Positions 45,567 through 62,288 of a stretch of 64,000 bases of DNA are shown here, in pieces (positions within the stretch are counted from its first letter, which is position 1; the number at the start of each line of letters is the position of its first letter). Made by a program: the position numbers and the translations under genes. Source of the stretch: an archaeon. Lineage in GTDB: Archaea; Aenigmatarchaeota; Aenigmatarchaeia; GW2011-AR5. Location of the stretch: NCBI GenBank assembly GCA_028279825.1, contig JANQNA010000007.1, forward strand, positions 25,409-89,408, written 5' to 3'. The notes beneath the pieces are model-generated. The model was not told the DNA's origin and made no database searches. It was given only the letters and a program-made list of their open reading frames with translations.

Positions 45567-46631
45567 ATGTACGACGTCATAATAGTAGGCGCCGGTGTAG
45601 CCGGTTCTTACCTTGCAAGTAAACTTGAAGGGTTAAATGTATTGCTTATCGAAAAGGATAAAAACCCCGTGTTAAAGGACAGCGGCATCGTATCTGAAGA
45701 CTTTTTGGAGTTCTTTGACGGTCCGATAAGATCAGGTATAAAGAGAATGGACTGTTTTTCACCGTCAGGTGATATGTTTACGCTTTATCGGTCCAAGCCT
45801 TTTGCATATGTGCTTGAGAGGGAGGCGTTTGCAAAAGTGTTAAAATCTAAGGCCAGGGTAAATGCACGAATAGTGTATGATACAGTCAAAGACATAAAAC
45901 AGGAAAAAGATTTTGTTTTGGTGGAGACACCTACACGAATATTCAAAACCAGAATTGTTGTAGGTGCCGACGGGGCAAACTCAACGGTGCGAAGAAGCGT
46001 TGGTATAGAAAGCCCTCAACTCTCCGTGGGTGTTATGGTTAAGACGAGAAAAATAGACGGACATATCAACGTTTTCTTCAACAAGCACTACTCACCTGAC
46101 TTTTTTTCCTGGATAATACCGCAAAACAATGAATACGGACTGATAACTTCCATGAGACCAAGGGAATGTTTGGAGTACTTCAAAGACAAGCAATACCTGC
46201 CTCCCGGCAAGGTTATAGCACATCTTGTGCCAACCGGGTACACAAAAAGTTATAGCCACAGGACAATTCTCTTGGGTGATGCCTGCGGCCACAACAAGCC
46301 CCTGACAGGCGGAGGGATTATGTTCGGCCTAAAGGCAGCCGGCTATGCAGCCGATACCATAAAGGAGGCATTCTCGAGAGAAAAATTTAGCGGCAGAGTT
46401 CTTGGGAAGTACGAAGCTGCCTGGAAAAAAGATCTCGCGTGGGAAATAAGAAAACAGTTTCTTGTCAGGAGATTTTACAGAAACCTTACCAACAGACAAA
46501 TAGATAAAATATTCAGCCATATTGGCAATGAAATAGAAAAGCTTCCTTACTTTGATTACGATAAATTCAGCAAATCATGGATGAGAATGTCAAAGTACAG
46601 GCTTTTCAAGGCTTTCATGTCTTCTATTTGA
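45567..46631 (+). CDS. Geranylgeranyl-reductase-like FAD oxidoreductase
   Basis: A 354-aa flavoprotein of the geranylgeranyl reductase family that in archaea saturates isoprenoid chains of membrane lipids or quinones. DVIIVGAGVAGSYLASKLEGLNVLLIEKD is the Rossmann FAD site. VGADGANSTVRRSVG is the DG motif, and LLGDACGHNKPLTGGGIMFGLKAAGYAA is the second FAD motif. DFFSWIIPQNNEYGLITSM corresponds to the YxWxFP region of the family. Substrate cannot be assigned. Short (354 versus ~390-450). ATG follows a TTTTAAC box, so it is probably leaderless. Confidence 0.88.
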   Translation: MYDVIIVGAGVAGSYLASKLEGLNVLLIEKDKNPVLKDSGIVSEDFLEFFDGPIRSGIKRMDCFSPSGDMFTLYRSKPFAYVLEREAFAKVLKSKARVNARIVYDTVKDIKQEKDFVLVETPTRIFKTRIVVGADGANSTVRRSVGIESPQLSVGVMVKTRKIDGHINVFFNKHYSPDFFSWIIPQNNEYGLITSMRPRECLEYFKDKQYLPPGKVIAHLVPTGYTKSYSHRTILLGDACGHNKPLTGGGIMFGLKAAGYAADTIKEAFSREKFSGRVLGKYEAAWKKDLAWEIRKQFLVRRFYRNLTNRQIDKIFSHIGNEIEKLPYFDYDKFSKSWMRMSKYRLFKAFMSSI

Positions 46632-47568
46632 GCACGTTTCTGATCTCGAATTTTCTGGATAGATAAACAAAACAGACGCCGCCCGAAAGATTTACCATCC
46701 ATATTGTTATCAAACGGAAGATTATTGTTGCGGTTGTTGCTATGGTTGTTTCAACACCTAAGACACCAAGCAAAAGAATCATGACAACTTCTGTTGTACC
46801 AACGCCTCCAGGCAGGGAGGAGGCAATGCCAATCATTATTGACAATGAAGTTACACCCGCCAGCAGGAAAGGACTGACCTCTACACCCAATGCAATGAGC
46901 ACGAAGTATAATACAAAACCTATCATCCCCCATGTAACCAATGCTATGATTTGCGACTTTATTATGTTTCTTTTTTTGATCTGTACAGTGTAGAAAACGT
47001 CCATGAAGTTATCCGGCAGCCTTTTTAGAATAGGGAACTTTTTGACTATCCTGAACAACCACTTTCCAAACCCTTTGTTGTAGAGAACTGTAATGGAAAC
47101 GGCTATAATTACAATAAAGACTGAGACGCTTATGACACCTGCCACAAAGAAATTCTGGCTTATGGAAAGCCTGCCTATTGCAACCAGAGAAAACAACAAC
47201 AGAGCAATAACATCGGTTATCCGCTCCCATATTATTGACGTAAGTGACAGCGAAATTGGCACACCTTTTCTCATTTTCAGTATTACAGCTTTTGCAGGCT
47301 CTGCTGCCTTACCGGGCGTGAAATTACTCAAGGCAAAACCGAATATTTGTATCGGTACTAACTCTTTGTAGCTGACCTTGTTCAGAAGTATCTTCCATTT
47401 CCATACACCAAGAAACATTGTTGTGAATGCAAACAGAAAACCAAACACGATGGGTACAGGATTACTTCTTGAAAGAACTTCTATCATGACAACGGGATCT
47501 GCGTAATATATTACTGCCGACAAAATTACAAGACTCAGTATCAGCATGAGTAATTTATACTGTTTCAT
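46624..47568 (-). CDS. UPF0104 / LPG synthase TM-domain membrane protein
   Basis: A 314-aa protein with about eight transmembrane helices of the YbhN/UPF0104 family. The landmarks are FGFALSNFTPGKAAEPAKAVILKMRKGVPISLSLTSIIWERITDVIALL and the Gly/Pro-rich SLPGGVGTTEVVMILLLGVLG. Family members are implicated in lipid or lipid-linked glycan flipping in archaeal and bacterial surface glycan clusters, which suits the glycosyltransferases around it. The substrate is unknown. Overlaps the GGR-like gene by 8 nt tail to tail. Confidence 0.85.
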   Translation of the reverse strand: MKQYKLLMLILSLVILSAVIYYADPVVMIEVLSRSNPVPIVFGFLFAFTTMFLGVWKWKILLNKVSYKELVPIQIFGFALSNFTPGKAAEPAKAVILKMRKGVPISLSLTSIIWERITDVIALLLFSLVAIGRLSISQNFFVAGVISVSVFIVIIAVSITVLYNKGFGKWLFRIVKKFPILKRLPDNFMDVFYTVQIKKRNIIKSQIIALVTWGMIGFVLYFVLIALGVEVSPFLLAGVTSLSIMIGIASSLPGGVGTTEVVMILLLGVLGVETTIATTATIIFRLITIWMVNLSGGVCFVYLSRKFEIRNVLK

Positions 47569-47619
47569 ACTCGCAATTTCATCTTAAGCTTTTAAACATT
47601 GATGCAGATCCTAATAGTC

Positions 47620-48807
47620 ATGGATTTTCTGAAAAATCTCAGCAAAGACAAGGTTTTTGTCTCAGTTCTTACGATTTTCATAGTCATCAAACTTCTTGTT
47701 TTTTTCACGGGATTCGGCGCGCAGGCATTTATACCGGAGGAGATAACAAACAGAAAGGATGTGACAGATAACATTTTTCTTAATCCATGGGCACAATATG
47801 ATGCACGTATATACCTGGATATAGCGCAGAATGGTTACAGGGATGACATGACTATTGGTGTGGCAGGTACTAACTACCACTTTTACCCGCTATACCCGTT
47901 GCTTATTTATCTTCTCGGCTTCATGACGCTGCCACTGGCTGCGTTTTTAGTTTCTAATCTTGCCTCTCTCGGAGCAGTTATACTTCTTTATCTTATAGTA
48001 AGAGATGAGTTTGACAAGAAGACTGCAAAACGGTCTGTTATCTATCTACTGCTCTTTCCGACTGCTTACTACTTCACTGCCATGTACACAGAGGCTGTAT
48101 TCCTTTTCGTTTCTTTGGCTACTTTTTATTTTGCAAAGAAAGAAAACTGGTTACTAACCGGCATGTTTGGTTTCCTAACGGCTATAACAAGACCAACCGG
48201 CGGGATTTTGTTCTTCCCAATTCTTTACATGTACCTGAGATCGAAAAAATTCAGCTACAAAAAACTTAACCTAAAGGTACTGAGGCCGGACGTTCTTTAC
48301 ATGTTGTTGATACCTATCGGCTTCTTTGCGTTCATGTTTTACCACTGGATAGCTGTTGGCAATCCGTTTGCGCAGTTTGAAAGTTTCAAGTTATGGCCAA
48401 CAGAATTCGGATTCCCGTGGGAAGGATATAGTTTTGCCGTAAGCTCTATATTTACTGATCATACACTGATCAATGTTAGTTATCACGTGTTCAACCTGTT
48501 TCTGTCAGTTGTTCTGGTTGTAGGCATATACTTTTCATGGAAATACCTGAAGAAAGAATACGTAATGTATTACGTACTTGGTCTGATACCGATATTTGCA
48601 TCTACTACCTTGTTCGGACTGCCAAGATATTCACTTGTTTTGTTTCCTCTGTTCATGACATTTTCTGTTTTTTCCCAAAAAGGTAAATGGAACAACAAAC
48701 TTGTTATTTTAATGTACGTACTGTTTGTGATACTGCTCCCAGTGCTTATTGTTTTACATGCAAATGAAAGATTCGTAACCGGGCTTGTCTTTTTGGAATT
48801 GTTTTAG
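47620..48807 (+). CDS. PIG-V-like GT-C mannosyltransferase
   Basis: A 395-aa multi-pass GT-C glycosyltransferase from MDFLKNLSKD. NPWAQYDARIYLDIAQNGYRDD matches the catalytic first loop of the PIG-V/GPI-mannosyltransferase-2 family (W-D-a-x-xYxxIAxxGY). PLYPLLIYLLGFMTLPLAAFLVSNLAS and FPTAYYFTAMYTEAVFLFVSLATFYFAKKENW follow the family pattern. It would use a dolichol-phosphate-linked sugar on the outer side of the membrane. The GT2 gene next door could make that donor. A TTTAAAC box lies 25 nt before this ATG, replacing the track start. Confidence 0.88.
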   Translation: MDFLKNLSKDKVFVSVLTIFIVIKLLVFFTGFGAQAFIPEEITNRKDVTDNIFLNPWAQYDARIYLDIAQNGYRDDMTIGVAGTNYHFYPLYPLLIYLLGFMTLPLAAFLVSNLASLGAVILLYLIVRDEFDKKTAKRSVIYLLLFPTAYYFTAMYTEAVFLFVSLATFYFAKKENWLLTGMFGFLTAITRPTGGILFFPILYMYLRSKKFSYKKLNLKVLRPDVLYMLLIPIGFFAFMFYHWIAVGNPFAQFESFKLWPTEFGFPWEGYSFAVSSIFTDHTLINVSYHVFNLFLSVVLVVGIYFSWKYLKKEYVMYYVLGLIPIFASTTLFGLPRYSLVLFPLFMTFSVFSQKGKWNNKLVILMYVLFVILLPVLIVLHANERFVTGLVFLELF

Positions 48808-49523
48808 TTTAGAAACCTGAAACGTATTATTGCGCCAAAGACACGCGTCCCATCACGGAAGAACTTTATTTTCTTTCCCTCTTCCTTTGAACGGGACCTG
48901 TAACTAACAGGAACTTCCACCGGTATATGACCTTTCTTTACAAGCTTGGCAACTATTTCCCAGTCAAGTTCGAAGTAATTGCTTTTGAAATTGATATCTT
49001 TCATGCATTCTGTTTTGAATATCTTGAACATCGTTGCCGGGTCTGTTAGTTTTGTTCGATAGAAGAAATTGAACAAACTTGTGAAGAAAACACCACCAAA
49101 GTTAAGAATGCTGCCGTAGGTTCCTTCTTTCTTGTACTTTCTTATCTTCCAGTCACCTTTTCCAAGGTTACGCGAACCCAGAACGAATTTTGTTTTGTCG
49201 TTAAGAATAGGTGCGAGTAGTTTTGGATATTCTTCCGGTCTGTACTCAAGATCCCCGTCCTGTATCAATATTATATCCCCGGTTGCTTTTTTGAAACCAA
49301 GCTTCATCGCGTTCCCCTTTCCGCAGGGCTTGGACTGGTAGAAAGCTTTAACGTTCTGTTTCTTGGCGTACTCCTTTACCTTTTCTTTTGTCCCGTCTGT
49401 AGAATTTGATTCAATAATTATTATTTCTTTCGTCATACCTATCTTTACTTTCGCTACACGCTTCATTATTTCGTCTATTGTTTTCGCTTCGTTATACAGC
49501 GGCATTATTATCGAAAGTTTCAT
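48804..49523 (-). CDS. GT2 glycosyltransferase (dolichyl-phosphate mannosyl/glucosyl synthase-like)
   Basis: A 239-aa GT-A glycosyltransferase: MKLSIIMPLYNEAKTIDEIM, EIIIIESNSTDGTKEKV, metal-binding IQDGDLEYRPEEYPKLL and VLGSRN. No transmembrane domain, so it is a soluble or peripheral Dol-P-sugar synthase type that transfers from an NDP-sugar to dolichyl phosphate. The 3' end overlaps the GT-C gene by 4 nt. Its start overlaps the methyltransferase stop (ATGA). Confidence 0.9.
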   Translation of the reverse strand: MKLSIIMPLYNEAKTIDEIMKRVAKVKIGMTKEIIIIESNSTDGTKEKVKEYAKKQNVKAFYQSKPCGKGNAMKLGFKKATGDIILIQDGDLEYRPEEYPKLLAPILNDKTKFVLGSRNLGKGDWKIRKYKKEGTYGSILNFGGVFFTSLFNFFYRTKLTDPATMFKIFKTECMKDINFKSNYFELDWEIVAKLVKKGHIPVEVPVSYRSRSKEEGKKIKFFRDGTRVFGAIIRFRFLN

Positions 49524-50137
49524 TGTTTCACCTTCGGAAAGAACGCCACAAGTTCGTCTCCTATTATACTTGTCCTGTTTTTACCTATTTTGTTCAAAAA
49601 CTGTACAAGGTCTTTTTTGGTTCGTATGTAAATACTGCCTGGGTCATTGGTACCGTCCTCTTCACCAAGGAGCTTTTCAAGGAAAGTTTTTCTGCGTACA
49701 TCTCTCAAGAACCTGTAAGTTTTTCTTGTGTTAGCATTCGGGTCGCTGAAAGGCTCCACGACAATCAGACCTTTTCTTGCGGCCTTGAATGCACGTTTCA
49801 TAGGCGCTTCGTCTTCCGGATGTATGTGGTGAATCACGTCGCTTACTATTATATAATCAGTTCTTGGTATCTGTGCTTTTGTGAAGTCCTTTTTCTGGAC
49901 TTTAAGACCACGTTTCTTTGCGAATTTCAGGAAATATTTGTTCAGATCCCAGCCTACGTATGTACAGTTCCGTAAATACTCTACAAGTTTGCAGGAACCA
50001 CATCCGATGTCCAAAACAGAGGAATTCTGTTTTATCAGATTGGCTAACAGAACATATCTTTTACTGTAGTTTTTTCCGTGTATCAGTCTCATTCCAAAAT
50101 CGTACATTTTTGGATGGGAGTACCAGATCGACACCAT
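49520..50137 (-). CDS. SAM-dependent methyltransferase
   Basis: Class I methyltransferase of 205 aa. SSVLDIGCGSCKLVEYLRNCTYVGWDLN is the SAM-binding motif I, and TDYIIVSDVIHHIHPEDEAPMKRAF resembles the DVxHH region of class I enzymes acting on small molecules or sugars. It is coupled to the GT2 gene and diverges from STT3 across 52 bp. Likely modifies a glycan or lipid carrier. Confidence 0.85.
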   Translation of the reverse strand: MVSIWYSHPKMYDFGMRLIHGKNYSKRYVLLANLIKQNSSVLDIGCGSCKLVEYLRNCTYVGWDLNKYFLKFAKKRGLKVQKKDFTKAQIPRTDYIIVSDVIHHIHPEDEAPMKRAFKAARKGLIVVEPFSDPNANTRKTYRFLRDVRRKTFLEKLLGEEDGTNDPGSIYIRTKKDLVQFLNKIGKNRTSIIGDELVAFFPKVKQ

Positions 50138-50189
50138 GTGTATTACCTAAAAGGCACTGTTTTTAAAGTTTTAAGGGCTGAGAAAGGAT

Positions 50190-51395
50190 ATGCGCATAGT
50201 GGATTTTGCCAAAAAATACTGGGTAATTATTGCTATTATTCTGATAATGGTCATGGCCTTCAACGTAAGAATGACTGACTACAGATGGCCATACCTGAGG
50301 AATATTGACTCCTACGTTTACTACAGATGGATGGGAGAGATAGTAGAGAATGACGGTGTACTTCCTATACACGATCCTTATGCAATTGCACCCGTGGGCG
50401 TTGAAAGGGAGCAGGACTTTATCTACCCTTACTTCTATGAGGGCGCATATGCGTACATGCTTACCAATGTGTTTATCCCGGACCTGACGCTGATACAGTT
50501 CCTTATATTCTTCCCGCCGTTCCTGGCCGCGCTGGCTGTAATTCCTATGTACTACATAGGCAGACTGCTCTATGACAGGCGGGCCGGTGTACTTGCAGCA
50601 TTCTTCTATGCGTTTGATATATCCAATTTGTCACGTTCGCTGGGCGGAGACCCCGATACGGACTCTATAATCATGGTTTTCTCCATGATAACCATGGCGG
50701 CTTTCCTGTATACTTACAAATACGCCGGCAAAGAAAGAATAATACTCAAGCAGCTGGTTCTTTACTCGCTTATGACGGCCGTGGTTCTGTGGATATGGTA
50801 CTCAACATGGGCAGGTTACTGGTATATATTCTGGCTGATCACAGGTCTGATTGTTGTCAAGACGCTGTTCAATATAATAGACGTCAAGGACCTGAAGAAG
50901 GGAGTGTTCAATTCGAGATACATTCTGCTTAGTTTCGCGATTATGATGGTTGTATCTTTTGCGTTTACTGTGCCTGCGCGTGGTACAGATCTTATATCCA
51001 GTGCAGTTTTCGGACCTATACAGTTCCAGAACATAAAAGGCGAGGATGCCCAATTCCCTAACGTATACGTATCTGTAGCGGAGCTTCAGACATCCGGCGG
51101 ACCAAGGGAGATAATTGAAAGGACTAGCGTTCTTTCAGGACCGGGTATACTCATATCGCCGTTTTTCCTCATGATTTACGCATTGCTCTATCTTTTGTAC
51201 TCTTATTACAAGACAAAGAAGCATATTGACACTGCGTTACTGCTGTTAGTGTGGTTCTTAGGGCCGTTTGCAGCTACATTAGTGGCCGTCAGGTTCAGCA
51301 TACTGTTTTCGGCACCTATGGCCATAGGCTCTGCAATAATTCTAGCAAAGATCATTAGAATGTCTACCGGGGAGGACAAAAGTCTGGGTGATTAA
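50190..51395 (+). CDS. STT3/AglB oligosaccharyltransferase, N-terminal membrane half
   Basis: A 401-aa membrane protein with the STT3 membrane core: TDYRWPYLRNIDSYVYYRWMGEIVENDG (catalytic first loop, with the D in NIDS). GGDPDTDSIIMVFSMIT is the DxD loop, and FPNVYVSVAELQTSGG is the SVxE-type EL5 motif that binds donor and acceptor. It stops with TAA after KSLGD, just before the last membrane helices and the soluble domain. The next ORF begins at the adjacent ATG in the same frame and holds the remainder. It transfers the lipid-linked glycan to Asn in N-X-S/T. Confidence 0.93.
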   Translation: MRIVDFAKKYWVIIAIILIMVMAFNVRMTDYRWPYLRNIDSYVYYRWMGEIVENDGVLPIHDPYAIAPVGVEREQDFIYPYFYEGAYAYMLTNVFIPDLTLIQFLIFFPPFLAALAVIPMYYIGRLLYDRRAGVLAAFFYAFDISNLSRSLGGDPDTDSIIMVFSMITMAAFLYTYKYAGKERIILKQLVLYSLMTAVVLWIWYSTWAGYWYIFWLITGLIVVKTLFNIIDVKDLKKGVFNSRYILLSFAIMMVVSFAFTVPARGTDLISSAVFGPIQFQNIKGEDAQFPNVYVSVAELQTSGGPREIIERTSVLSGPGILISPFFLMIYALLYLLYSYYKTKKHIDTALLLLVWFLGPFAATLVAVRFSILFSAPMAIGSAIILAKIIRMSTGEDKSLGD

Positions 51396-52502
51396 ATGAA
51401 GAAAGAGATATTACTATTCCTGACGGTGCTGCTGCCATTCCTGGCTTTGGTTTACTTCGACTTACTTGTTTCTATAGTAGTGCTGATTATTCTTGTTGGC
51501 GTGTTTTATTTCACGAAGAACATTGAGAAGGAAAGAATTCCTGTTGCCGTGGTAGTGTTCTTTATCCTGACGATGATGTTTACACTGAATTTTGTGCCTG
51601 CAGTCAGCATAGCTAGCGGTCACGGGACTGTCCTGTCGGATAACTGGTGGGAGGCACTTAACTGGATGAAAGAAAATACTGCCGAATGTGCGGTCGTGGC
51701 AACTTACTGGGATCCTGGACACTTCATAACCGGTATTGCCAGAAGATCCGTGGTTTTTGACGGCGCGTCGCAGAGTCATCTGTATGAAAGACCTACTGAT
51801 GAGGACAGGGAGGGCCTGGTTGTTGACACGTTTGATAACAACATAAATCATATTGTACTGTATGAAAACGGCAACAAGACTACAGCAAGAATCCAGGACA
51901 TATCAACTACTTTGCTGACCTCCAATGAAACACTTGCTATAGAGATACTGAAAGAGTACAGAAACCCGGACTGTGATGAGATGTACTACATAGCTTCCGC
52001 GGATCTTATACCGAAAAGTACCTGGTGGACTTACTTTTCCACATGGAATCCTGTAGACAAGAGAGGAACACCTTATGTTTATTCGACGGTGCCCCTTGGA
52101 TCTTCAAGACCTGATGTACAGCAGAACGCAATAATCTATACATATCCTGTTGCACAGGATTCTTCTTTTGTTGTTTACGTTACGGAACAAGAAATGTTCG
52201 TGTTCCTTCAGCAGCAAGGCGCACCTGCACCACTGATGGTAGAGAAATTCCTGTTCTTTGACCAGGAGGGCAACGGACGACTGGTTGTGCAACAAAATTC
52301 CACGATACCAGGACTCGTGTTTATACAACCTGGAAACAGTGCATTGCTGTTCATACCTCCTGAACTGGAAAATGCAATGTTTACAAGGATGTTTCTTTTC
52401 AACGGAAACGGTCTGGAGAACTTTGAATATGTCGGTGAATGGGGCGGTGAAGTTAAACTTTTCAAAGTAAAATTTGAGGAAGAACTTTTCAGCTCTTTGT
52501 AA
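51396..52502 (+). CDS. STT3/AglB oligosaccharyltransferase, C-terminal half
   Basis: A 368-aa protein starting at the ATG immediately after the TAA of the upstream gene, in the same reading frame. Two or three transmembrane helices (EILLFLTVLLPFLALVYFDLLVSIVVLIILVGVFYF; IPVAVVVFFILTMMFTLNFV) precede the soluble domain with SDNWWEALNWMKENTAECAVVATYWDPGHFITGIARRSVVFDGASQ. ATYWDPGH is the equivalent of the WWDYG acceptor-binding motif. STT3 is usually one chain of 700-900 aa, and the two halves together give 769. The split may be genuine two-subunit architecture, stop readthrough or reinitiation. Confidence 0.92.
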   Translation: MKKEILLFLTVLLPFLALVYFDLLVSIVVLIILVGVFYFTKNIEKERIPVAVVVFFILTMMFTLNFVPAVSIASGHGTVLSDNWWEALNWMKENTAECAVVATYWDPGHFITGIARRSVVFDGASQSHLYERPTDEDREGLVVDTFDNNINHIVLYENGNKTTARIQDISTTLLTSNETLAIEILKEYRNPDCDEMYYIASADLIPKSTWWTYFSTWNPVDKRGTPYVYSTVPLGSSRPDVQQNAIIYTYPVAQDSSFVVYVTEQEMFVFLQQQGAPAPLMVEKFLFFDQEGNGRLVVQQNSTIPGLVFIQPGNSALLFIPPELENAMFTRMFLFNGNGLENFEYVGEWGGEVKLFKVKFEEELFSSL

Positions 52503-53601
52503 TATTCCTGTAAACGCCTACAATTCTTTTGACAATTATTTCCCAGTCGTACGCTTCCGCAGTTTTTCTGCCTCTTGCTGTGAATTTTTTATGCAAGACC
52601 CTGTCTTCCAGAAGCTCTTCAATTCTTTTTGCGAGTTCCTTCTCGTCACCAATTTCCGTGAGAAAACCATTCACACCGTTTTTGATGTAATCATTTGGTC
52701 CGTCAGTCTTTGTTGATATTATTGGTGTGCCTGCGGCCATCGATTCCAAAGGAACAATGCCAAAACATTCCCTTATTGACGGCAGAACAAGTACTGCAGC
52801 TGCTTTGATTTCCCTTACCATGTCCCTGTGGTTCTTGTAAGGTTTTATGAACTCTACACGTTCATTAACTTTCAGCTGTTTACATAACGCCTGCAGTTTC
52901 GGTTTTTCGAAACCTTCACCCAGTATTTTCAGTTTGTATTCTTTCTTTGTAAGGGCGAACGCCCTGATTAACGTTGGTACGTCTTTTTGCGGTGTTAATC
53001 TTCCTACATAAAGAATTGTGGTCTGTGATTTTTTCGGTTGTTTTACTGAATCTATTTCATCAACATGTATGCCACTGGGTAAAACGGATATTTTTTCCTT
53101 GTCGTACTTCAGAAGTTTGATTATACGGTCTCTTATTTTTGAATTGAGTGTCAACATTTTTGTTACAGGCATTTTTGCCGAGATTACTTCAAAGAAAGGT
53201 CCCGTGAAGAATAGTGAGCTATTGGTCATCTGTTTCCAGTTACCCAAGTACAGATCATGTAAAGTGCCAACTACGGGTGTTTTAGTCCTTAAGCCGGCCA
53301 GGGAACACGGAACTAATGTAGGATGACCGTTAGCATCAATAATATCATATTTTTCTTTTGAGAGTTTTTTGTACAGCTCGTACCAGTAACGCACAAGAAA
53401 AGCATAATTCCTCTTTGGAGGGTCTGTGATGGTTGGTTTTGAAGTCTGGATAATGTTCAGGTAAGGCAAGTCCTGCGGGTGACTTGTTGTGTACAGGTCT
53501 ATTTCAAATCCGTATTTTTTTGCAAGCACGGCTATCTGTTCAACTCGTTTTTCAACGCCGTACACCGGATACATAACTTCTGTACACAAAGCTACTCTCA
53601 T
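52489..53601 (-). CDS. GT4 glycosyltransferase
   Basis: A 370-aa GT-B retaining glycosyltransferase. MRVALCTEVMYPVYGVEKRVEQIAVLAKKYG opens the acceptor domain. TTILYVGRLTPQKDVPTLIRAFALTKKEYKLKILGEG and SIRECFGIVPLESMAAGTPIISTKTDG carry the E-x7-E donor motif. The PVYGVEKRVEQIA segment resembles the GGxExxxxxLA region. It probably builds the lipid-linked oligosaccharide. Tail to tail with the STT3 C-terminal gene, overlapping by 14 nt. Confidence 0.92.
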   Translation of the reverse strand: MRVALCTEVMYPVYGVEKRVEQIAVLAKKYGFEIDLYTTSHPQDLPYLNIIQTSKPTITDPPKRNYAFLVRYWYELYKKLSKEKYDIIDANGHPTLVPCSLAGLRTKTPVVGTLHDLYLGNWKQMTNSSLFFTGPFFEVISAKMPVTKMLTLNSKIRDRIIKLLKYDKEKISVLPSGIHVDEIDSVKQPKKSQTTILYVGRLTPQKDVPTLIRAFALTKKEYKLKILGEGFEKPKLQALCKQLKVNERVEFIKPYKNHRDMVREIKAAAVLVLPSIRECFGIVPLESMAAGTPIISTKTDGPNDYIKNGVNGFLTEIGDEKELAKRIEELLEDRVLHKKFTARGRKTAEAYDWEIIVKRIVGVYRNITKS

Positions 53602-53743
53602 GGCAATCAATCTGCAAAATAATTTATTAAAGCATCAAATTCAGGTTTATTTCCACCCTTGTACCAAAACCGCCTTTAAATCAAAATAAGTCTACGTATT
53701 TAAGAAACTTAATCTAATAAGGTTTTTTACGATTTGCTTCATA

Positions 53744-55042
53744 ATGAAAATTGTTTTTATTGATCCGAAAGGTGTCTGGGAGGGACTGAATAACGGACTT
53801 GCCTACATAGCTTCCGGAATAAGAGAACACGATGTTAAAGTAATTGATTTTGTCAACAAGGCAGGTAACGTGGAAAAAAGACTGGAGGCTGTCAAGGACG
53901 CGGATTTTATCGGGATTTCAATAAAGTCCTTTACCCTGGATGAATCCATAATGGCCGCAGAGATGGTAAGAAAGATTAATCCTGATGCAAAAATTATTGC
54001 AGGCGGACCGCATGTCATGGTTGACGGCTACAATCTTATGAAGGACAGTCCCGTTTTTGATATTGGAATATTTGGCGAAGCTGAGTACGCATTCAAGGAG
54101 CTGTTATCCGGCAAACCTCTGGAGGAAATAGACGGCATAATTTTCCGAAAGGGCGGGGTACTTGTAAACAACAAACCAAGGGAATGGATTACTGATTTAG
54201 ACTCCCTCCCATTTCCTACTTACGAAGCCTTTGATTCTGTGGAAACCCATGTTGAGAACTGGCCGCTTGTTACTTCACGCGGCTGTCCTTACACATGTAC
54301 CTACTGTAATGTGCCCAAGGTTATAGGAAGAAAATTCAGAACAAGAAGCGGGGAAAGCATTGTTAAGGAACTGAAGTATGCAAAAGAAAAATACGGAAGT
54401 ACGGAGTTCAAAGTGTTGGATGACAACTTTACACTACTAATGGACAGGGCAAAAGAAATCTGTAAACTTATGATAAAAGAGAATCTTGACATGAAATGGA
54501 CCTGTCCTAACGGCATAAGGGCGGACAGACTTGACGAGGAACTTTGTTCACTGATGAAGGAAGCCGGGTGTTATTCTGTTTCGATAGGTGTTGAAAGCGG
54601 AGACCCTGAAGTGTTCGACAAAATAAAGAAGGGTGAAAAACTGGAGGATGTTGAAAAAGGCATCAATCTTGCAAAGGCTGCCGGCATAAAGGTTCACGGT
54701 TTCTTTATAATCGGGCTGCTTGGAAGTACATATGAGTCTGACAAGAGATCCATGGAATTCGCAAAGAAAATGGGAATAACGGCTTCATGGGGCATACTTG
54801 TTCCTTATCCCGGAACAGAAGTATGGGAACAAATCAAGAAAGACCCAAAATCCAGGATACTGAAAGACTGGAAAGAGGGATTTCACATAGGCGCCAGACC
54901 AAAACCGGTCTACGATACCGAAGAATATACAGCGGAAGAACGCGTGAAGGCTTACTACAAGGCTAATATGTCAACAATAAAGAAAAGAGACATACCACGC
55001 GCTGCAAAGATGGTAATTAAGGGTCTTATGAGCGGAAAATAA
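53744..55042 (+). CDS. Radical SAM protein with B12-binding-like N-domain
   Basis: A 432-aa BchE/P-methylase-style radical SAM enzyme. N-terminal Rossmann-like cobalamin-binding region (IFIDPK..; DFIGISIKSFTLDESIMAAEMVRKINPDAKIIAGGPHV) without an obvious DxHxxG. The radical SAM core has SRGCPYTCTYCNVPKV (CxxxCxxC binding a [4Fe-4S]) and GVESGDPEVFDKIKKG. The substrate is unknown; in this surface-glycan setting it may modify a sugar, lipid or cofactor. A second, longer relative lies at 59585-61042. Confidence 0.88.
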   Translation: MKIVFIDPKGVWEGLNNGLAYIASGIREHDVKVIDFVNKAGNVEKRLEAVKDADFIGISIKSFTLDESIMAAEMVRKINPDAKIIAGGPHVMVDGYNLMKDSPVFDIGIFGEAEYAFKELLSGKPLEEIDGIIFRKGGVLVNNKPREWITDLDSLPFPTYEAFDSVETHVENWPLVTSRGCPYTCTYCNVPKVIGRKFRTRSGESIVKELKYAKEKYGSTEFKVLDDNFTLLMDRAKEICKLMIKENLDMKWTCPNGIRADRLDEELCSLMKEAGCYSVSIGVESGDPEVFDKIKKGEKLEDVEKGINLAKAAGIKVHGFFIIGLLGSTYESDKRSMEFAKKMGITASWGILVPYPGTEVWEQIKKDPKSRILKDWKEGFHIGARPKPVYDTEEYTAEERVKAYYKANMSTIKKRDIPRAAKMVIKGLMSGK

Positions 55043-55094
55043 TTCGGGTTTTGCACTAGATACGTTTTAAATGCTTTGTTTTCACTATTTCCAA

Positions 55095-55991
55095 ATGAGA
55101 ATTCTTTTCATAGGTTCTTCAAAGATAACAAGGGTCTGCATTGAGAGGTTAATATCTTTAGGCGAAGATGTGCAGGCTGTCATAACACTGCCAAATGAAA
55201 AAATATACAACAGAGCACGTGGAGTTGTGTTTGACGATCTGGGTGTGACAGTTGTTAAGACAGATGATATATCCTCGGAGGACGTTGTTTCTTTCGTCAA
55301 GGCGATAAAACCGGAAGTTATAGTTCAGTGCGGCTGGTCACAGAAAATACCAATGGATATTTTGAATGTCCCACAGCACGCAATAGGAATACACCAGTCT
55401 TATCTGCCGGAAAACAGGGGAGCTGCTTCACTTAACTGGGCAATAATTAATGATCTTAAGGAGACAGGCGTTTCACTGTTTTATATGGGTGAGAAGTATG
55501 ACGAAGGTGATATTCTTAATCAACGAAAAATTCAGATAGAAGAACGGGACGACATAAGGACCCTGCATGAAAAATCCGATGCCGTAAGCGTGGAAATGCT
55601 GGCAGAGACACTGGATCATATAAGGAATAATACTCTGGTGACAAAACCACAGGATAATTCTCTTGCTACTTATACGAAAAGAAGAAAGCCGGAAGACGGC
55701 AAGATAGAATGGAATAAAACCTCGAGAGAGGTTTGGAATTTTATCAGGGCCCTGACACAACCGTTTCCGGGTGCTTTTACATATCTTCGGGACAAGAAAA
55801 TTCTGGTATGGAAAGCAAGCATGTCAGACAAAACAGGGACACCCGGTGAGGTGCTGGACATAACAAACGGTAAGGGAGTTGAGGTAGCTACAGGTAATGG
55901 TTCCGTAATAATGGAACGTGTTGGTACGGACGGGATAGAAATGTTTGCGGATGAACTAGAAATAAAAATTGGTGATACTTTTGGAAATTGA
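55095..55991 (+). CDS. Formyltransferase-family protein (Fmt/ArnA-like)
   Basis: A 298-aa protein of the N10-formyl-THF formyltransferase fold from MRILFIGSSKITR (start set by a GTTTTAAATG box 25 nt upstream). GIHQSYLPENRGAASLNWAIINDLKETGVSLFYMGEKYDEGDIL carries the catalytic His and Asp; the usual N-x-H Asn is Gly (IGIH). The C-terminal domain KRRKPEDGKIEWNKTSREVWNFIRALTQPFPGAFTYL matches the Fmt C-terminal beta-barrel. Probably a sugar or amino-sugar formyltransferase, not tRNA formylation, which archaea lack. The one-carbon enzymes downstream support this. Confidence 0.85.
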   Translation: MRILFIGSSKITRVCIERLISLGEDVQAVITLPNEKIYNRARGVVFDDLGVTVVKTDDISSEDVVSFVKAIKPEVIVQCGWSQKIPMDILNVPQHAIGIHQSYLPENRGAASLNWAIINDLKETGVSLFYMGEKYDEGDILNQRKIQIEERDDIRTLHEKSDAVSVEMLAETLDHIRNNTLVTKPQDNSLATYTKRRKPEDGKIEWNKTSREVWNFIRALTQPFPGAFTYLRDKKILVWKASMSDKTGTPGEVLDITNGKGVEVATGNGSVIMERVGTDGIEMFADELEIKIGDTFGN

Positions 55992-57096
55992 AGATAGAAT
56001 AAAGAAGGCAACTGACTGGATGCTTAATTCGGGCATACAAAATTCAGACGGGGAACACAAAGGCGGCATAAACAGCTACCACACGGAACAAGGTTATCCA
56101 TATATTTACAGCGAGATAACAGGTTACGGTGTTTCTGCTTTTCTGTATGCAAGCGAAGTAAACAGAAAGCTTGTTGAACGTGCGAAACTTGCTGCTGACT
56201 GGCTTATCAAAAAGGCATTGATGTCAAGCGGAGGTGTCAGAACAAGATACTACTACCAGCCAACCGATAATATTTATTCATTTGAATCGGGTAATTCATT
56301 TCCTTTTGACACGGCAATGGGTCTTTACGGTCTTGTGATGCTTTACAACTCAACACGTGATGAGAAGCTGATTGAACCGATAAGAAGAATGGCTGATTTC
56401 ATTGTAAGCATGCAGAGAGAGGACGGCACATTTGATGCTTATGTCACATCTACGGGAGAGAAAGTGACTTCATACGATAAATGGTCCAACCAGCCTTCTC
56501 CGTTCCATTCAAAGCTATCTTTAGGTCTTTTAGAGGCAGGAATGCTGCTTGATGATGAGAATTTAGTGGAGGCGGCCATAAAGGTTTGTGAAAGGTCCAT
56601 GGACTTCATGGACAACGGAAGATTCATAACAAGAGCCAATGAAAGAATGTCAGATACGCATCCTAATTGCTATTCTGCAGAAGGGTTGCTGTATTCAGGC
56701 ATGGAACTTGAAAGATTTGATTTCATGGAGTGTGCCGCGTTTGGCGTTGATTCAATTGTCAAAAGATTTTACGGGAAACTTCCCTGTGCATTTGATGATG
56801 TTATAACAGTGGATAACATGAGAATTGACACTGTTGCACAGACACTGAGACTTTCGGTCATATTAAAGAAGCTTGATCTTTTGAAGACGGACAAGATGGA
56901 ACAGCTTTACAACACGCTTGTAGAAAACCAGATTGTTGATGGCAAACAGGACGGAGGATTCGTTTACGGCACAAATGACGACGGTGCTGTTATGAATCAT
57001 CCCAACTCATGGGTCAGCATGTTTGCACTACAGGCAATGATTATGTATAAAGACTGCTTGGACGGCAGAAAATTAAGGATAAAGCCTTTTGTATGA
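55981..57096 (+). CDS. (Alpha/alpha) toroid protein, glycan-processing-like
   Basis: A ~371-aa soluble protein rich in repeated helical hairpins: GYGVSAFLYASEVNRKLVERAKLAADWLI, FDTAMGLYGLVMLYNSTRDEKLIEPIRRMADFIVSMQREDGTF, FHSKLSLGLLEAGMLLDDENLVEAAIKVC, NCYSAEGLLYSGMELERFDFMECAAFGVDSI. This matches the (alpha/alpha)6 barrel of glycoside hydrolases, epimerases or terpenoid-cyclase relatives. No ATG is available near the start; TTG 55981 or GTG 55972 (within GGTGAT) must be used, overlapping the formyltransferase. Substrate unknown. Confidence 0.7.
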   Translation: MEIEDRIKKATDWMLNSGIQNSDGEHKGGINSYHTEQGYPYIYSEITGYGVSAFLYASEVNRKLVERAKLAADWLIKKALMSSGGVRTRYYYQPTDNIYSFESGNSFPFDTAMGLYGLVMLYNSTRDEKLIEPIRRMADFIVSMQREDGTFDAYVTSTGEKVTSYDKWSNQPSPFHSKLSLGLLEAGMLLDDENLVEAAIKVCERSMDFMDNGRFITRANERMSDTHPNCYSAEGLLYSGMELERFDFMECAAFGVDSIVKRFYGKLPCAFDDVITVDNMRIDTVAQTLRLSVILKKLDLLKTDKMEQLYNTLVENQIVDGKQDGGFVYGTNDDGAVMNHPNSWVSMFALQAMIMYKDCLDGRKLRIKPFV

Positions 57097-57106
57097 TCTT
57101 ATACTC

Positions 57107-58315
57107 ATGGATGAAATTTTCGGGCTTATAGAACAGGAGAAACAGAGGCAATTGGATACTTTAGAGCTTATACCTTCGGAGAACTATGTTTCACCGGCCG
57201 TGATGAAAGCGCTGGGATCAGAGCTTAACAACAAATATTCAGAAGGATATCCCAGAAAACGTTATTATGGCGGTAACCAGTTTGTTGACCAGCTTGAGGA
57301 GATGGCTATAGAAAAAGCCAAGAAGATATTTGGAGCGGAACATGTTAATGTACAGCCCTACTCAGGTTCTCCGGCAAATGCTGCAGTGTTTTTTGCGCTG
57401 CTTGACATAGGCGCCAAGTTTATGGGTATGGAACTCTCACAGGGAGGGCATCTTACACACGGTTCACCTGTAAGTTTTTCCGGAAAATTCTTTACAGCTG
57501 TGTCATATGGTGTTGACAGGGAGACAGAGATGCTTGATTACGATGCCATAAGGAAATTAGCTGTAAAGGAAAAACCAAAGATGATAATCTCAGGATTTAC
57601 TGCTTATCCAAGAAAGATAGACTTTGAAGAATTTCACAAAATAGCCCAGGAGGTTGACGCGATTTCTTTCGCAGATATTTCTCACATAGCAGGACTTGTT
57701 GCAGGTGGTGTGCATCCTTCACCGTTTCCTTTCATGGATGTTGTGTCAACAACTACACACAAGACACTCAGAGGTCCAAGAGGAGCTATGATATTGTGTA
57801 AAGAAGGCTTCGCCAAGGCTATAGACAAGGCTGTTTTTCCTCTGCTTCAGGGCGGACCACATGACCATGCTATTGCAGCAAAGGCTATTGCATTTGAAGA
57901 GGCTTTGCAACCTGAATTCAAGGAGTACCAGAAACAGATAGTCCGCAATGCCAAAGCACTGGCAGATGCACTGATGAACAACGGATTCAGACTGGTTTCA
58001 GGCGGCACTGATAATCACCTGATGCTGATAGACCTTACAAAGAACAACACCACAGGAAAAGAAGCAGAGACACTTCTGGACCGGGCTGGAATCACTGTAA
58101 ACAAGAATACTATACCGTATGACACAAGGAAGCCTCTTGACCCGAGCGGTATACGGCTTGGAACACCTATTGTTACTACAAGAGGGATGAAAGAGCAGGA
58201 AATGAGACAGATAGCCGAGTTAATCAAGAATGTTATAATTGACAAGAAGGATCCTGAAAAGGTAAGGGAAAACGTTAACGGCCTTTGCGCCGATTTTTCT
58301 GCTTTCGCGTGGTGA
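57107..58315 (+). CDS. glyA: Serine hydroxymethyltransferase
   Basis: PLP enzyme, 402 aa, moving a one-carbon unit between serine and (methano- or tetrahydro-)folate. ELIPSENYVSPAVMKALGSELNNKYSEGYPRKRYYGGNQ is the substrate-binding segment. DISHIAGLVAGGVHPSP and STTTHKTLRGPRGAM contain the Asp and PLP-binding Lys. GGPHDHAIAAKAIAFEEAL is the typical GGPHxH. I choose ATG 57107 (MDEIFGLIEQE). It is followed within 4 nt by folD, supporting a folate-type carbon carrier and the formyltransferase nearby. Confidence 0.95.
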   Translation: MDEIFGLIEQEKQRQLDTLELIPSENYVSPAVMKALGSELNNKYSEGYPRKRYYGGNQFVDQLEEMAIEKAKKIFGAEHVNVQPYSGSPANAAVFFALLDIGAKFMGMELSQGGHLTHGSPVSFSGKFFTAVSYGVDRETEMLDYDAIRKLAVKEKPKMIISGFTAYPRKIDFEEFHKIAQEVDAISFADISHIAGLVAGGVHPSPFPFMDVVSTTTHKTLRGPRGAMILCKEGFAKAIDKAVFPLLQGGPHDHAIAAKAIAFEEALQPEFKEYQKQIVRNAKALADALMNNGFRLVSGGTDNHLMLIDLTKNNTTGKEAETLLDRAGITVNKNTIPYDTRKPLDPSGIRLGTPIVTTRGMKEQEMRQIAELIKNVIIDKKDPEKVRENVNGLCADFSAFAW

Positions 58316-58319
58316 TTGA

Positions 58320-59129
58320 ATGTTGTTAGATGGTAAGAAAGTGGCTGCCAAGGTCGAGGAATATGCAAAAAATTTTATAGGTGACGGCAAACCTTCAATT
58401 ACTTTCTTTGTGGTTGGTGAGGATGCAGCTACTGACATATATGTAAGAAATAAGAGAAACGCCTGCGAGAGGGTTGGTATTGAATCGGAGGTTCTTAATT
58501 TTGCCGATGATGTTAAAGAGGAACATCTCATAGAAGAGATTCACAAAATGAACAAAAGTGACACTACAGGTATAATTGTGCAGCTGCCGCTCCCGGTTCA
58601 TATAAACGAAGACAAGGTACTCGGGGCAATTGACACAGAAAAGGATGTTGACTGCATGCATCCCGAGAATCTGGGACGATTATTCTTTTCGTCAGATCTT
58701 ATACCATGCACAACCGCCGGCATACTTAGACTAATAGAGGAGACCGGTACAGGTGTTAAAGGGAAAAACATTGTTGTAATAAACAGAAAACATATCGGGA
58801 AATCACTGGCTACAATACTGATTAACAGGAAGGCCACTGTTGCGGTATGTGGTAGGAACACCGATCTGGAAAAATTCACAAAGGATGCTGATATTGTGGT
58901 CACCGCCGCAGGTTGTCCCGGACTGATAAAAAAATCTATGCTGAAACCGGGTGTTATAGTCATAGATGTTGGGATAAGCAGAATAAACGGCAAGATCAAG
59001 GGCGATGCGGATGAAGACGTGAAGGATATTGCTTCTTATGTTACACCTGTCCCGGGCGGTGTGGGTCCAATGACGGTTGCTATGCTCATGAAAAACACAG
59101 CTGAGATGTACAAAAAACACAATATTTAA
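58320..59129 (+). CDS. folD: Methylene-THF dehydrogenase / methenyl-THF cyclohydrolase (FolD)
   Basis: A bifunctional NAD(P)-dependent enzyme oxidising methylene-THF to 10-formyl-THF, 269 aa. TDIYVRNKRNACERVGIESEV (catalytic Tyr/Lys), IVQLPLPVHINEDKVLGAIDTEKDVDCMHPENLGRL and PCTTAGILRLIEE are present, and YVTPVPGGVGPMTVAMLMKNT is the C-terminal signature. The GRSxxVGxP nucleotide loop is altered to NRKHIGKSLA, so cofactor binding may be unusual. Product 10-formyl-THF would be the donor for the formyltransferase 2 kb upstream. Confidence 0.95.
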   Translation: MLLDGKKVAAKVEEYAKNFIGDGKPSITFFVVGEDAATDIYVRNKRNACERVGIESEVLNFADDVKEEHLIEEIHKMNKSDTTGIIVQLPLPVHINEDKVLGAIDTEKDVDCMHPENLGRLFFSSDLIPCTTAGILRLIEETGTGVKGKNIVVINRKHIGKSLATILINRKATVAVCGRNTDLEKFTKDADIVVTAAGCPGLIKKSMLKPGVIVIDVGISRINGKIKGDADEDVKDIASYVTPVPGGVGPMTVAMLMKNTAEMYKKHNI

Positions 59130-59152
59130 GAGTAACTGTGATAGGAGTCCAT

Positions 59153-59590
59153 ATGAGTCTTGTGTACCTTATTATCATAGGAGTTTTGTTTAATCTAATT
59201 GTAAAACTAATTTCTATGAAGACGATAAAATATTCAAAAGGCCTGGATTCAATGCCAGCTATTCCAATAATAGCTGGTTTTCTTTACGGAACTTCTGCGG
59301 GATTATGGGCCGGTGTTATACTCGCAGTCAGTTATCATATAATAAGACCAAGAACACTTGGTTATGCACCGCTTACTGTTGTAACAAACATAATGGTAGG
59401 TGTTCTGGCAGCTTTCTTCGTTTCGTGGGATCTTCTTGTTTTGGGAGTAGTTCTCGTCATACTTTACCATGCAGTGTCAATAGGAATAGTTTCCGTTCTT
59501 GGCGGACTTGGGCCGGGATATTTTTCATTTACAGCGTTTAACTTCTTTACGTCACTTGTCATACTTTATCTTGCAACGCTCTACTTATGA
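59153..59590 (+). CDS. Small multi-pass membrane protein
   Basis: A 145-aa protein with about four to five transmembrane helices (LVYLIIIGVLFNLIVKLISMK; MPAIPIIAGFLYGTSAGLWAGVILAVSYHII; LTVVTNIMVGVLAAFFVSW; ILYHAVSIGIVSVLGGLGPGYFSFTAFNFF), resembling small ECF- or MptA-like membrane components by eye only. GGAG precedes the ATG at 59153. The 3' end overlaps the radical SAM gene by 6 nt. Function unknown. Confidence 0.65.
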   Translation: MSLVYLIIIGVLFNLIVKLISMKTIKYSKGLDSMPAIPIIAGFLYGTSAGLWAGVILAVSYHIIRPRTLGYAPLTVVTNIMVGVLAAFFVSWDLLVLGVVLVILYHAVSIGIVSVLGGLGPGYFSFTAFNFFTSLVILYLATLYL

Positions 59591-61042
59591 CCAGCCAAAC
59601 TTTCTTTTTACCATGCGATCAAGTATTTTCACGCTCATGGTTTTTTCAAAATTATGCTTCTCCCAGTTCTTTCTGTAGTTAGAGGACAATCCTCTTATGA
59701 AGAATTTAGGCACCTTTGTATTCCTCAGCACCTGACATAGCCTTTTTCCGTCAACGAATTTTGACGTGTACATTATCATTTCAAGCATTTCTTTCTTGTC
59801 CTGAATCCATGGTGTGTAAGTTTGCTGCCGACTGAAACCTATCCATTCTTCCAGCGTTTTTGGCACCTGGAAGCCTTGTTTAACGGCGTAGTCAAACAAA
59901 GGTGCACCGACATAAGGTACGTAGATATAGAACTGTGTTATGTGGCCATTGGGATTTTCTTTTATCATCTGCAGGGCCAGATCGACAGTTTCAAGAAGTT
60001 CGTCGTATGTCTCTCCGGGAAATCCCATCATGAAATTATAAAATGCCTTTATGTTTGTCTCAGCAAGTTTCCTGTTCGCGGCAATCATTGTTGCTTTGTC
60101 CTCACCCTTGTTTACCAGTTTCAGTATTCTGTCACTCCCCGATTCTATCCCGGGTTCTACAACTCTTAGCCCGCCAGCTTCAAGCTTTTTCATGTCTGTG
60201 ATCAGCATGTTATCCATACGTGCCTGCATTGACCACAGGAATTTTCCGCCAATGAGATCTGCTATTTCCTCACTGCGTTTTGGATTTGATGTGAAATTTT
60301 CGTCGTAGAATTTTACCACATCAATGTTAAACTTTTTTACCATCTTACTGACACGTTCATATGTCAGTTCGGCATTCATGCTTCTCCATTTCCCTTTGTT
60401 TATTCCTCCCGTGCTGCAGAAAGTGCATGTGTAAGGACATCCTCTGCTGGAAATAAAAGGCAGCGTCCTTTCTTTTACATTGAATGATATCCCGCCGCTT
60501 TTGACGTAATTTTCAATATCAACAAGGTTATACGGAACTTCGGGTATTTCGTTTGGATCAGGCTGGCCAGCTTTTTCATTGAACTTTACCCTTCCGTTTT
60601 CTTTGTAAACAATACCTTTTACATCTTCCAGATTCCTTTTACCGTCCAATGCATCCATAATATCCTGAAGAACAAACTCACCTTCGCCTATAACCAACAT
60701 GTCTATAAGGGGATGCTCTATGGTCTGCTGCGGCATTAGTGTTGCATGTACTCCACCCCATAGAACTTTTGCCTTTGATTTCTCTTTTACAATTCTGGAT
60801 GCTTCAAGGGCGTATTTTAGTTGTGTACCGGTCATTGAAGGAATTAACACAACTTTTGGATCTTTTGACAACTCTTCCAGCAGGTGCTTATCAAACTCGT
60901 CATCCACGCGCTGATCCAATATCTTTACTTCATGATCTTTGTATACAACAGATACCGTGGACAATAAACCAAGAGGTAATTCAACAGAAGAATTTTTTAT
61001 GTCATAACCTGTTTTTGGGTAGACACCCAATATCTCAGCCAT
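59585..61042 (-). CDS. B12-binding radical SAM protein
   Basis: A 485-aa radical SAM enzyme of the B12-binding class. The N-terminal domain (PLGLLSTVSVVYKDHEVKILDQRVDDEF...VLIPSMTGTQLKYALEASRIVKEKSKAKVLWGGVHATLMP) leads to FISSRGCPYTCTFCSTGG with the CxxxCxxC cluster. GGLRVVEPGIESGSDRILKLVNKGEDKATMI and FYNFMMGFPGETYDELLETVDLAL are typical. The second in the window, with different domain spacing. Substrate unknown; may act on isoprenoids, hopanoid-like lipids or sugars. Confidence 0.88.
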   Translation of the reverse strand: MAEILGVYPKTGYDIKNSSVELPLGLLSTVSVVYKDHEVKILDQRVDDEFDKHLLEELSKDPKVVLIPSMTGTQLKYALEASRIVKEKSKAKVLWGGVHATLMPQQTIEHPLIDMLVIGEGEFVLQDIMDALDGKRNLEDVKGIVYKENGRVKFNEKAGQPDPNEIPEVPYNLVDIENYVKSGGISFNVKERTLPFISSRGCPYTCTFCSTGGINKGKWRSMNAELTYERVSKMVKKFNIDVVKFYDENFTSNPKRSEEIADLIGGKFLWSMQARMDNMLITDMKKLEAGGLRVVEPGIESGSDRILKLVNKGEDKATMIAANRKLAETNIKAFYNFMMGFPGETYDELLETVDLALQMIKENPNGHITQFYIYVPYVGAPLFDYAVKQGFQVPKTLEEWIGFSRQQTYTPWIQDKKEMLEMIMYTSKFVDGKRLCQVLRNTKVPKFFIRGLSSNYRKNWEKHNFEKTMSVKILDRMVKRKFGWS

Positions 61043-61156
61043 TCCATGCATTATAGTTCACATACTTTTAAGGTTATTTTTGACTTCATTTCTATAATTG
61101 TACCAAAAAGACGTTCAATTCGTTTGGTTTAAATTCTTTTTTTGGCCTGTTATGTT

Positions 61157-62257
61157 ATGAAAGTAGCGATGGTTTTGGGAACCAGGCCCGAAATTATAAA
61201 GATGTCTCCTGTTATCAGGGAATTTGACAAACGTGGAGTGGAACATTTTATACTTCACACAGGACAACACTATTCCTACAACATGGACGAGTCTTTTTTT
61301 GATGAGATTGGTCTACCAAAGTCCAGATATAACCTCGGTGTGAGGTCAAAAGCACCGTATCTTCAGGGTGATCATACAGGAAGAATGATGACTCTTGTAG
61401 AGGAATTAATACTTAAGGAAAAGCCTGACGTTGTTCTTGTTTTAGGAGACACAAACACGGTTCTTGCAGCGTCTTTATGTACTGCAAAATTCAGGACGTC
61501 CAGAATCGGTATAGAGTTGGGTCATATAGAAGCAGGACTCAGAAGCTTTGAAAGAACATTACCTGAAGAGATAAACAGGGTTGTTTCTGATTCTTTATCA
61601 GACGTTCTTTTTGCACCCACGAATACTTCAAAGAGGAACCTGCTTAATGAAAGCATAGCGGAACACAGAATTCATGTTACGGGTAATACTGTCACAGACG
61701 CATTGGAATTTTTCAGAAACAAACTTAGTGACAAGATACTTACAGATCTTGGTGTTGAGAAAGATAACTATTTTGTTCTGACAGCTCACCGGGAATATAA
61801 CGTTGATGTCCCTGAACGATTCAAGGCCATAGCTGACGGCGTCCAGAAGATACACGACGAGTTTGGAATGAAGGTTATATACCCGATTCACCCAAGAGCC
61901 AAGAAAATGATGGCAACTCTTGGTATCAAGATCCCGGATTGTGTAAAAACAATAGATCCTGTCGGTTATCTGGATTTTCTGTCACTACAGAAAAACGCAA
62001 AACTGGCACTGACAGATTCCGGCGGAGTTCAGGAAGAGTCATGTATACTTGGTACACCATGTGTTACATTGAGAGACAGCACGGAAAGACCGGAAACCGT
62101 TGATCTGGGCTGTAATGTTGTATCGGGACTGGACCCGGTGAACATACTCAATGCTGCAACAACCGTGATAAACGCGAAGGACTGGAAACATCCGTATGGC
62201 GACGGAGATGCTGCTGTGAAAATTGCCAAAATACTTGCAGAAAAATATGAAAAGTAA
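61157..62257 (+). CDS. wecB: UDP-N-acetylglucosamine 2-epimerase (WecB)
   Basis: Non-hydrolysing epimerase, 366 aa, converting UDP-GlcNAc to UDP-ManNAc. MKVAMVLGTRPEIIKMSPVIREFDKRGVEHFILHTGQHYSYNMDESFFDEI is diagnostic. VLVLGDTNTVLAASLCTAKF, GHIEAGLRSFERTLPEEINRVVSDSLSDVLFAPT and VTGNTVTDAL follow. GVQEESCILGTPCVTLRDSTERPETV completes the active site. I use MKVAMV at 61157. It supplies a ManNAc-type sugar for surface glycans. Confidence 0.95.
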   Translation: MKVAMVLGTRPEIIKMSPVIREFDKRGVEHFILHTGQHYSYNMDESFFDEIGLPKSRYNLGVRSKAPYLQGDHTGRMMTLVEELILKEKPDVVLVLGDTNTVLAASLCTAKFRTSRIGIELGHIEAGLRSFERTLPEEINRVVSDSLSDVLFAPTNTSKRNLLNESIAEHRIHVTGNTVTDALEFFRNKLSDKILTDLGVEKDNYFVLTAHREYNVDVPERFKAIADGVQKIHDEFGMKVIYPIHPRAKKMMATLGIKIPDCVKTIDPVGYLDFLSLQKNAKLALTDSGGVQEESCILGTPCVTLRDSTERPETVDLGCNVVSGLDPVNILNAATTVINAKDWKHPYGDGDAAVKIAKILAEKYEK

Positions 62258-62288
62258 CTATTTATAAAATCAGTCGAAGAGGGTTTTT

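Follow-up and report, generated by a model that had tools for sequence, protein, structure and literature searches.

In textbooks, archaeal and bacterial oligosaccharyltransferases (OSTs) consist of a single subunit, and an OST active site depends on residues of the membrane part together with residues of the extracellular domain. OST catalytic subunits have been described as single chains (PMC8342417). AglB of Archaeoglobus fulgidus (AfAglB; PDB 3waj, 5gmy, 7e9s) matches the locus considered here by profile from TM1 through the WWDYG region and by fold over its full length, and has its motifs in the same order (DxD, DxD, EL5 acidic motif, R-F, W-D-x-G). Unlike AfAglB, which is one chain, the locus encodes two, broken in the cytoplasmic loop between TM12 and TM13; it further differs by an extra TM hairpin, by YWDPG in place of WWDYG, and by a DK motif that we can match only tentatively. 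Fused AglB-like STT3 proteins of other Aenigmatarchaeota (families f22, f13, f18, f7 and others, and the genomes G030 and G035) are homologous, with the same domains and W-D-P-G, but come as a single ORF of 600-870 aa instead of two. Alg13/Alg14 (EpsF/EpsE), a MurG-like glycosyltransferase of the same pathway class, is also split (PMC4973528, PMC8993221); it resembles the present case in being a glycosyltransferase divided into a membrane and a catalytic chain, with both fission and re-fusion events, and differs in being a cytosolic nucleotide-sugar enzyme of GT-B fold that belongs to another step and family. In DPANN archaea, split genes have been described for alanyl-tRNA synthetase, reverse gyrase and Dph1/2, with fission occurring in small-genome members (PMC6349945); those proteins are soluble and mostly informational, whereas the pair here would form a polytopic enzyme of the membrane, whose active site is composite. 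Gene fission in DPANN is thus already known, and the split OST appears to be new: the literature that we searched on OSTs, gene fission and Aenigmatarchaeota glycosylation, with subscription papers and preprints outside its scope, gave no report of a split STT3, AglB or PglB.

The locus lies in a 64,000-nucleotide stretch of DNA, hereafter the window, from a draft genome (G000) of an Aenigmatarchaeota archaeon. The initial annotation had described two abutting ORFs in the same frame with one in-frame stop between them, and this is what we find, TAA being the only stop that separates the two:

50190..51395, + strand: N chain of the OST (STT3/AglB TM1-12), 401 aa, ATG start, PF02516 match; it contains both DxD-type motifs, the EL5 SVAE motif and the TM11-12 'RF'
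51393..51398, + strand: junction, with the N-chain stop TAA (51393-51395) abutting the C-chain ATG; it maps to the cytoplasmic TM12-TM13 loop
51396-51398, + strand: start codon ATG of the C chain
51396..52502, + strand: C chain of the OST, 368 aa, comprising a hairpin, TM13 and an extracellular domain with YWDPG

The N half matches the Pfam STT3 family (PF02516) at 4.4e-24 with 86 bits, against a cut-off of 24.5. The C half gave no Pfam match above cut-off, and profile searches built from its relatives were therefore used; it matches the core region of solved STT3s among PDB sequences. The archaeosortase-associated profile TIGR04154 (archaeo_STT3), with a cut-off of 450 bits, was not reached, the halves scoring 93 and 21 bits. 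No other STT3 above the Pfam cut-off was found in the 0.98 Mb genome, leaving the ORF pair as its sole STT3/AglB-type OST; a GT-C-like ORF running off the end of the window (63218-64000) has a sub-threshold PF02516 match of 23 bits. Like coding genes, both halves show third-codon-position variability and a low dN/dS, and with this coding-type variation and the STT3 matches of each half the ORF pair is more than a product of chance.

The catalytic motifs are distributed over the two chains as the initial annotation had it, with DxD and SVxE motifs in the N half (D40, D156-T-D158 and SVAE at 295-298) and YWDPG in the C half (C-chain residues 104-108):

50307..50309, + strand: predicted metal-binding Asp of the first DxD-type motif (N-I-D40), invariant in the N chains of split relatives
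50655..50663, + strand: second DxD motif, D156-T-D158, both Asp invariant in the N chains of split relatives
51072..51083, + strand: EL5 motif of TIXE/SVSE type, S295-V-A-E298, Ser and Glu invariant in the N chains of split relatives
51705..51719, + strand: sequon-binding motif of WWDYG type, here Y104-W-D-P-G108, invariant in the aligned C chains

The metal-binding role of D40 is predicted by homology to Asp47 of AfAglB (PMC8342417). R368-F369, in window numbering, is likewise invariant across the N chains of split relatives. On the other side of the junction, YWDPGHFI is invariant across the C chains of 16 relatives, fused relatives of the class having WWDPG at that motif, and the same alignment (n=16) holds an invariant D203-L-x-x-K207...W210-W211 that is DK-like with a spacing unlike that of the DK motif. 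The pair thus has the STT3 N-terminal multi-TM domain, two DxD-type motifs, the acidic EL5 motif and the WWDYG-type motif by which the OST family is recognized, and departs from the family in that the whole active site is encoded not in a single polypeptide but in two separate ORFs. This two-chain state is a variant within the homologous STT3/AglB/PglB (GT66) family and not grounds for exclusion from it.

The TM12-TM13 loop that holds the junction is on the cytoplasmic side of the membrane. Profile alignment to AfAglB, read on the 13-TM layout of AglB (PMC8342417), puts the junction between TM12 and TM13, with the N chain ending after TM12. The heads of the C chains contain 1, 3, 5 or 7 TM-like segments in 15/16 cases, the exception being L020, where four were counted and a fifth may be hidden; an odd number would place the N-terminus in the cytosol and the extracellular domain outside, and a break in a cytoplasmic loop would allow each chain to be inserted alone without a signal peptide. 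AlphaFold2 was run on the joined chain, read through the stop with TAA shown as Gly, using an alignment of 34 rows of split and fused relatives. The resulting model has a mean pLDDT of 90.3 and a pTM of 0.87, values that say nothing on the association of the free chains, and it has the 13-TM membrane fold and extracellular C domain of the family. The last of the long N-chain membrane helices in it is H367-393, just ahead of the junction; junction residues 398-401 have pLDDT < 50, i.e. are disordered, and an extra hairpin precedes the last TM helix. Foldseek returned PglB, AglB and STT3 as the top PDB matches, over the full length and more than 800 alignment columns, with TMq of 0.57-0.65 for the best matches to PglB/AglB. 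The model shows, within the limits of a prediction, that the two halves together hold the parts of one OST.

Two of the explanations offered initially, a sequencing error and a strain-specific lesion, here widened to take in assembly error and a recent nonsense mutation of an otherwise intact STT3, gain some appeal from the window's genome being a multi-contig draft, from the presence of one stop only, and from the fused ORF of 600-870 aa found in most other families of the class. Comparison with related genomes, the check suggested at the outset, speaks against both. We reconstructed both halves in relatives' genomes, nearly all of them metagenome draft assemblies of uncultured cells, and found the two-ORF split in 40 Aenigmatarchaeota genomes, G000 among them. 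In the window's order (families f1-f6) 26/27 genomes examined are split, the exception being the fused G030; family f11 has nine split genomes and the fused G035, and family f9 is split in 5/5. The relatives are therefore far from being all intact: 39 other genomes, independently assembled, carry the split, in six families of the order plus two others, always in the cytoplasmic loop preceding the last membrane helix and with differing junction sequences, and both halves are under purifying selection (see below). We therefore discard error and strain-specific damage, to which we would give next to no probability. Every named relative of the C half is either a member of Candidatus Aenigmatarchaeota or an unplaced archaeon of similar kind, with archaeon GW2011_AR5 (L033) among the closest. 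Some breaks, in G068 and in G002/G020, are possible assembly errors and were left out as separate evidence. In G068 (L082:1864-3943) STT3 is broken elsewhere, after about residue 270, with overlapping out-of-frame ORFs, either by a frameshift error or as another split; the frame breaks within the N half in G002 (L003:2-1418) and G020 (L010:87-1380) are probably assembly errors.

Decoding of the TAA by read-through or recoding, yielding a single full-length STT3, was another option raised initially, and the window itself is suggestive of it, with both halves in one frame and a single stop in TAA-ATG; G005 and G008 share this in-frame layout. The frame offset is zero, however, in only 5/34 adjacent pairs (G000, G005, G008, G020 and G027), three of which (G000, G005 and G008) abut as TAA-ATG, and the shared frame in the window is a coincidence. 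In the remaining 29/34 pairs, all three genus-mates of the window genome in the comparison set (G001, G002 and G003) included, the halves are out of frame, and read-through of a single stop would be unable to yield a fused protein in those genus-mates. The N stop varies among relatives between TAA, TAG and TGA: G002 and G003 have TGA, with the C chain starting 4 nt downstream of that codon's first base, and G001 has TAG, with two alternative C starts, a GTG that overlaps the N end and an ATG 19 nt further along. In genus g9 (G011 and G016) a complete methyltransferase ORF (Methyltransf_11, 2.3e-21) stands between the N and C halves:

L072:2012-2674 and L015:836-1498: intervening methyltransferase ORFs of genus g9, overlapping the N-half stop

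In genus g29 of family f11 the halves are on different contigs in four genomes (G074, G069, G042 and G048; MAG contigs), and in G074 both are mid-contig, the N half at C22:58526-59740 of 66,683 and the C half at C55:23100-24014 of 38,369. Lineages with a gene between the halves (g9) or with unlinked halves (g29) can thus make separate proteins only. Because the split is conserved, mostly out of frame and sometimes unlinked, we reject read-through together with error and damage; with a strong Shine-Dalgarno (SD)-like site also preceding the second ATG, we regard it as a very remote prospect. Around the displaced halves of f11, we note ATPase-like ORFs following the unlinked N half (L129:5992-8557, L130:5473-6813) and small repeats of the N-half 3' end near such ORFs in G074 (C22:60965-61138 and 62559-62663), which perhaps mark a route of C-half displacement. 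G069 has a second, partial C-half copy (L088, G069:C13:8257-8544), an ORF of 135 aa that lies about 3 kb away from the complete one and may be either a duplicate of the acceptor domain or a copy in decay.

The sequence leading into the C start in the window is GGTGAT-TAA-ATG, of which the first six nucleotides resemble an SD site:

51387..51392, + strand: SD-like GGTGAT for the C ORF, inside the end of the N ORF, predicted to pair with the anti-SD

The 3' end of 16S rRNA in the same genome is TGGATCACCTCCT and contains the canonical anti-SD, so that GGTGAT can pair with it; a candidate coupling sequence, GGTGATTAAATG, takes in both the SD-like site and the N-chain stop. The duplex energy of this site with the anti-SD is -9.9 kcal/mol, among the strongest 3% upstream of ATGs of the locus. 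Across 28 genomes the C starts average -6.9 kcal/mol, vs -3.4 kcal/mol for other ATGs in the same loci, with a Mann-Whitney p of 1.7e-10 that has to be read with the relatedness of the genomes in mind, since they are not independent and p-values in this test, as in the selection and TM-parity tests likewise drawn from related genomes, overstate independence. Termination-coupled or SD-driven initiation would be the natural reading of how the C chain starts, and the strong SD-like site supports (re-)initiation at the abutting ATG, also proposed initially, as the source of the second chain. The 16S rRNA gene of this genome itself looks interrupted (L146:1-1515; G000:C8, about 167.2-168.7 kb): near 600 the 16S sequence resumes just after the end of an ORF-like stretch, and about 170 nt of extra sequence lie near 1165-1340. 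These interruptions are possible rRNA introns.

As for the origin of the split, a quick tree of 52 concatenated sequences joins the order and f11 in one supported clade, puts f9 elsewhere, and requires four changes between fused and split states at the least. AU tests rejected the idea that all splits go back to one event with no later re-fusion: neither all splits as one clade (order, f11 and f9; p-AU 1e-74) nor an order-plus-f11 clade without the fused G030 and G035 (p-AU 4e-52) was compatible with the data. The fused G030 sits inside the split clade, and its fusion as an ancestral state retained outside that clade was weakly rejected (p-AU 0.02). The same loop must thus have undergone fission twice or more, or a combination of fissions and re-fusions. 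One split in the ancestor of the order and f11 followed by two re-fusions fits four changes, and separate splits with one re-fusion fit them equally. With halves separately encoded and a single gene in relatives, the locus belongs with the fissioned genes of DPANN, and by comparison of the genomes the split is old and inherited, not the result of a broken gene.

Between G003 and G002, dN/dS is 0.02-0.03 for the N half and 0.05-0.06 for the C half, with dS near saturation, and on this sequence comparison both halves are judged to be under purifying selection. The distances of N and C chains correlate in split genomes with r of 0.86 (order) and 0.96 (f11), and in fused genomes with 0.85. This bears on a further alternative, in which the separate chains no longer make one OST, for example with the N or C half keeping a lone GT-C activity and the other now an unrelated surface protein. 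Such divergence would be permitted by free coding and by the unlinking seen in some genomes, and the DK/MI motif of the C domain is matched only tentatively. However, the catalytic motifs split between the chains are all retained, N and C evolve in step as they do in fused relatives, the joined chains model as a full OST, and a fused member, G030, sits inside the split clade; we consider the loss of a joint OST function improbable.

We therefore favor, with a probability of roughly 0.88, a two-chain heteromeric OST with translationally coupled chains, for which assembly, activity and coupling are what we infer, while the split, its conservation, the separate coding in relatives and the selection on both halves are established as far as comparison of genomes can do so. 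The conserved split and the separate coding in relatives support the suggestion, made in the initial annotation, that the OST works as two chains. In such an enzyme, the N chain (TM1-12) would carry the donor- and metal-binding half of the active site, and the C chain, with its extra membrane hairpin, TM13 and extracellular domain, the acceptor-sequon (YWDPG) half. The adjacent, coupled ORFs would be translated separately, the SD-like site in the end of the N ORF perhaps loading or retaining a ribosome at the abutting ATG; each chain might then enter the membrane by itself, its broken end in the cytoplasm, before the two come together as one AglB-like enzyme. At the origin of the arrangement would be an old fission of the gene in the cytoplasmic loop between TM12 and TM13, which the order inherited and which recurred in other families.

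A gene cut exactly between the membrane part and the extracellular domain, with both halves under selection and sometimes separated, would offer a two-component system, already made by nature, in which to study how the donor side and the acceptor side work together, and would extend the split genes of DPANN to a membrane enzyme whose active site is composite. It would also lead automated annotation to label the N half as a truncated STT3 and to overlook the C half. One might go further and suppose that recurrent OST fission at the same cytoplasmic loop in this phylum has created an exchangeable acceptor-binding subunit, an idea that we entertain as a long shot; if so, unlinked C chains could be swapped, duplicated or separately regulated, and such changes could alter which sequons or proteins get glycosylated.

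Lastly, we note that the OST lies within a glycan-assembly neighbourhood (window positions 46624-62996), where Pfam matches identify an LPG_synthase_TM protein, a PMT_2 GT-C, a GT2, a methyltransferase and a GT4, and where radical-SAM-, formyltransferase- and UDP-GlcNAc-epimerase-like ORFs and a further GT2-like ORF are recognizable by eye.
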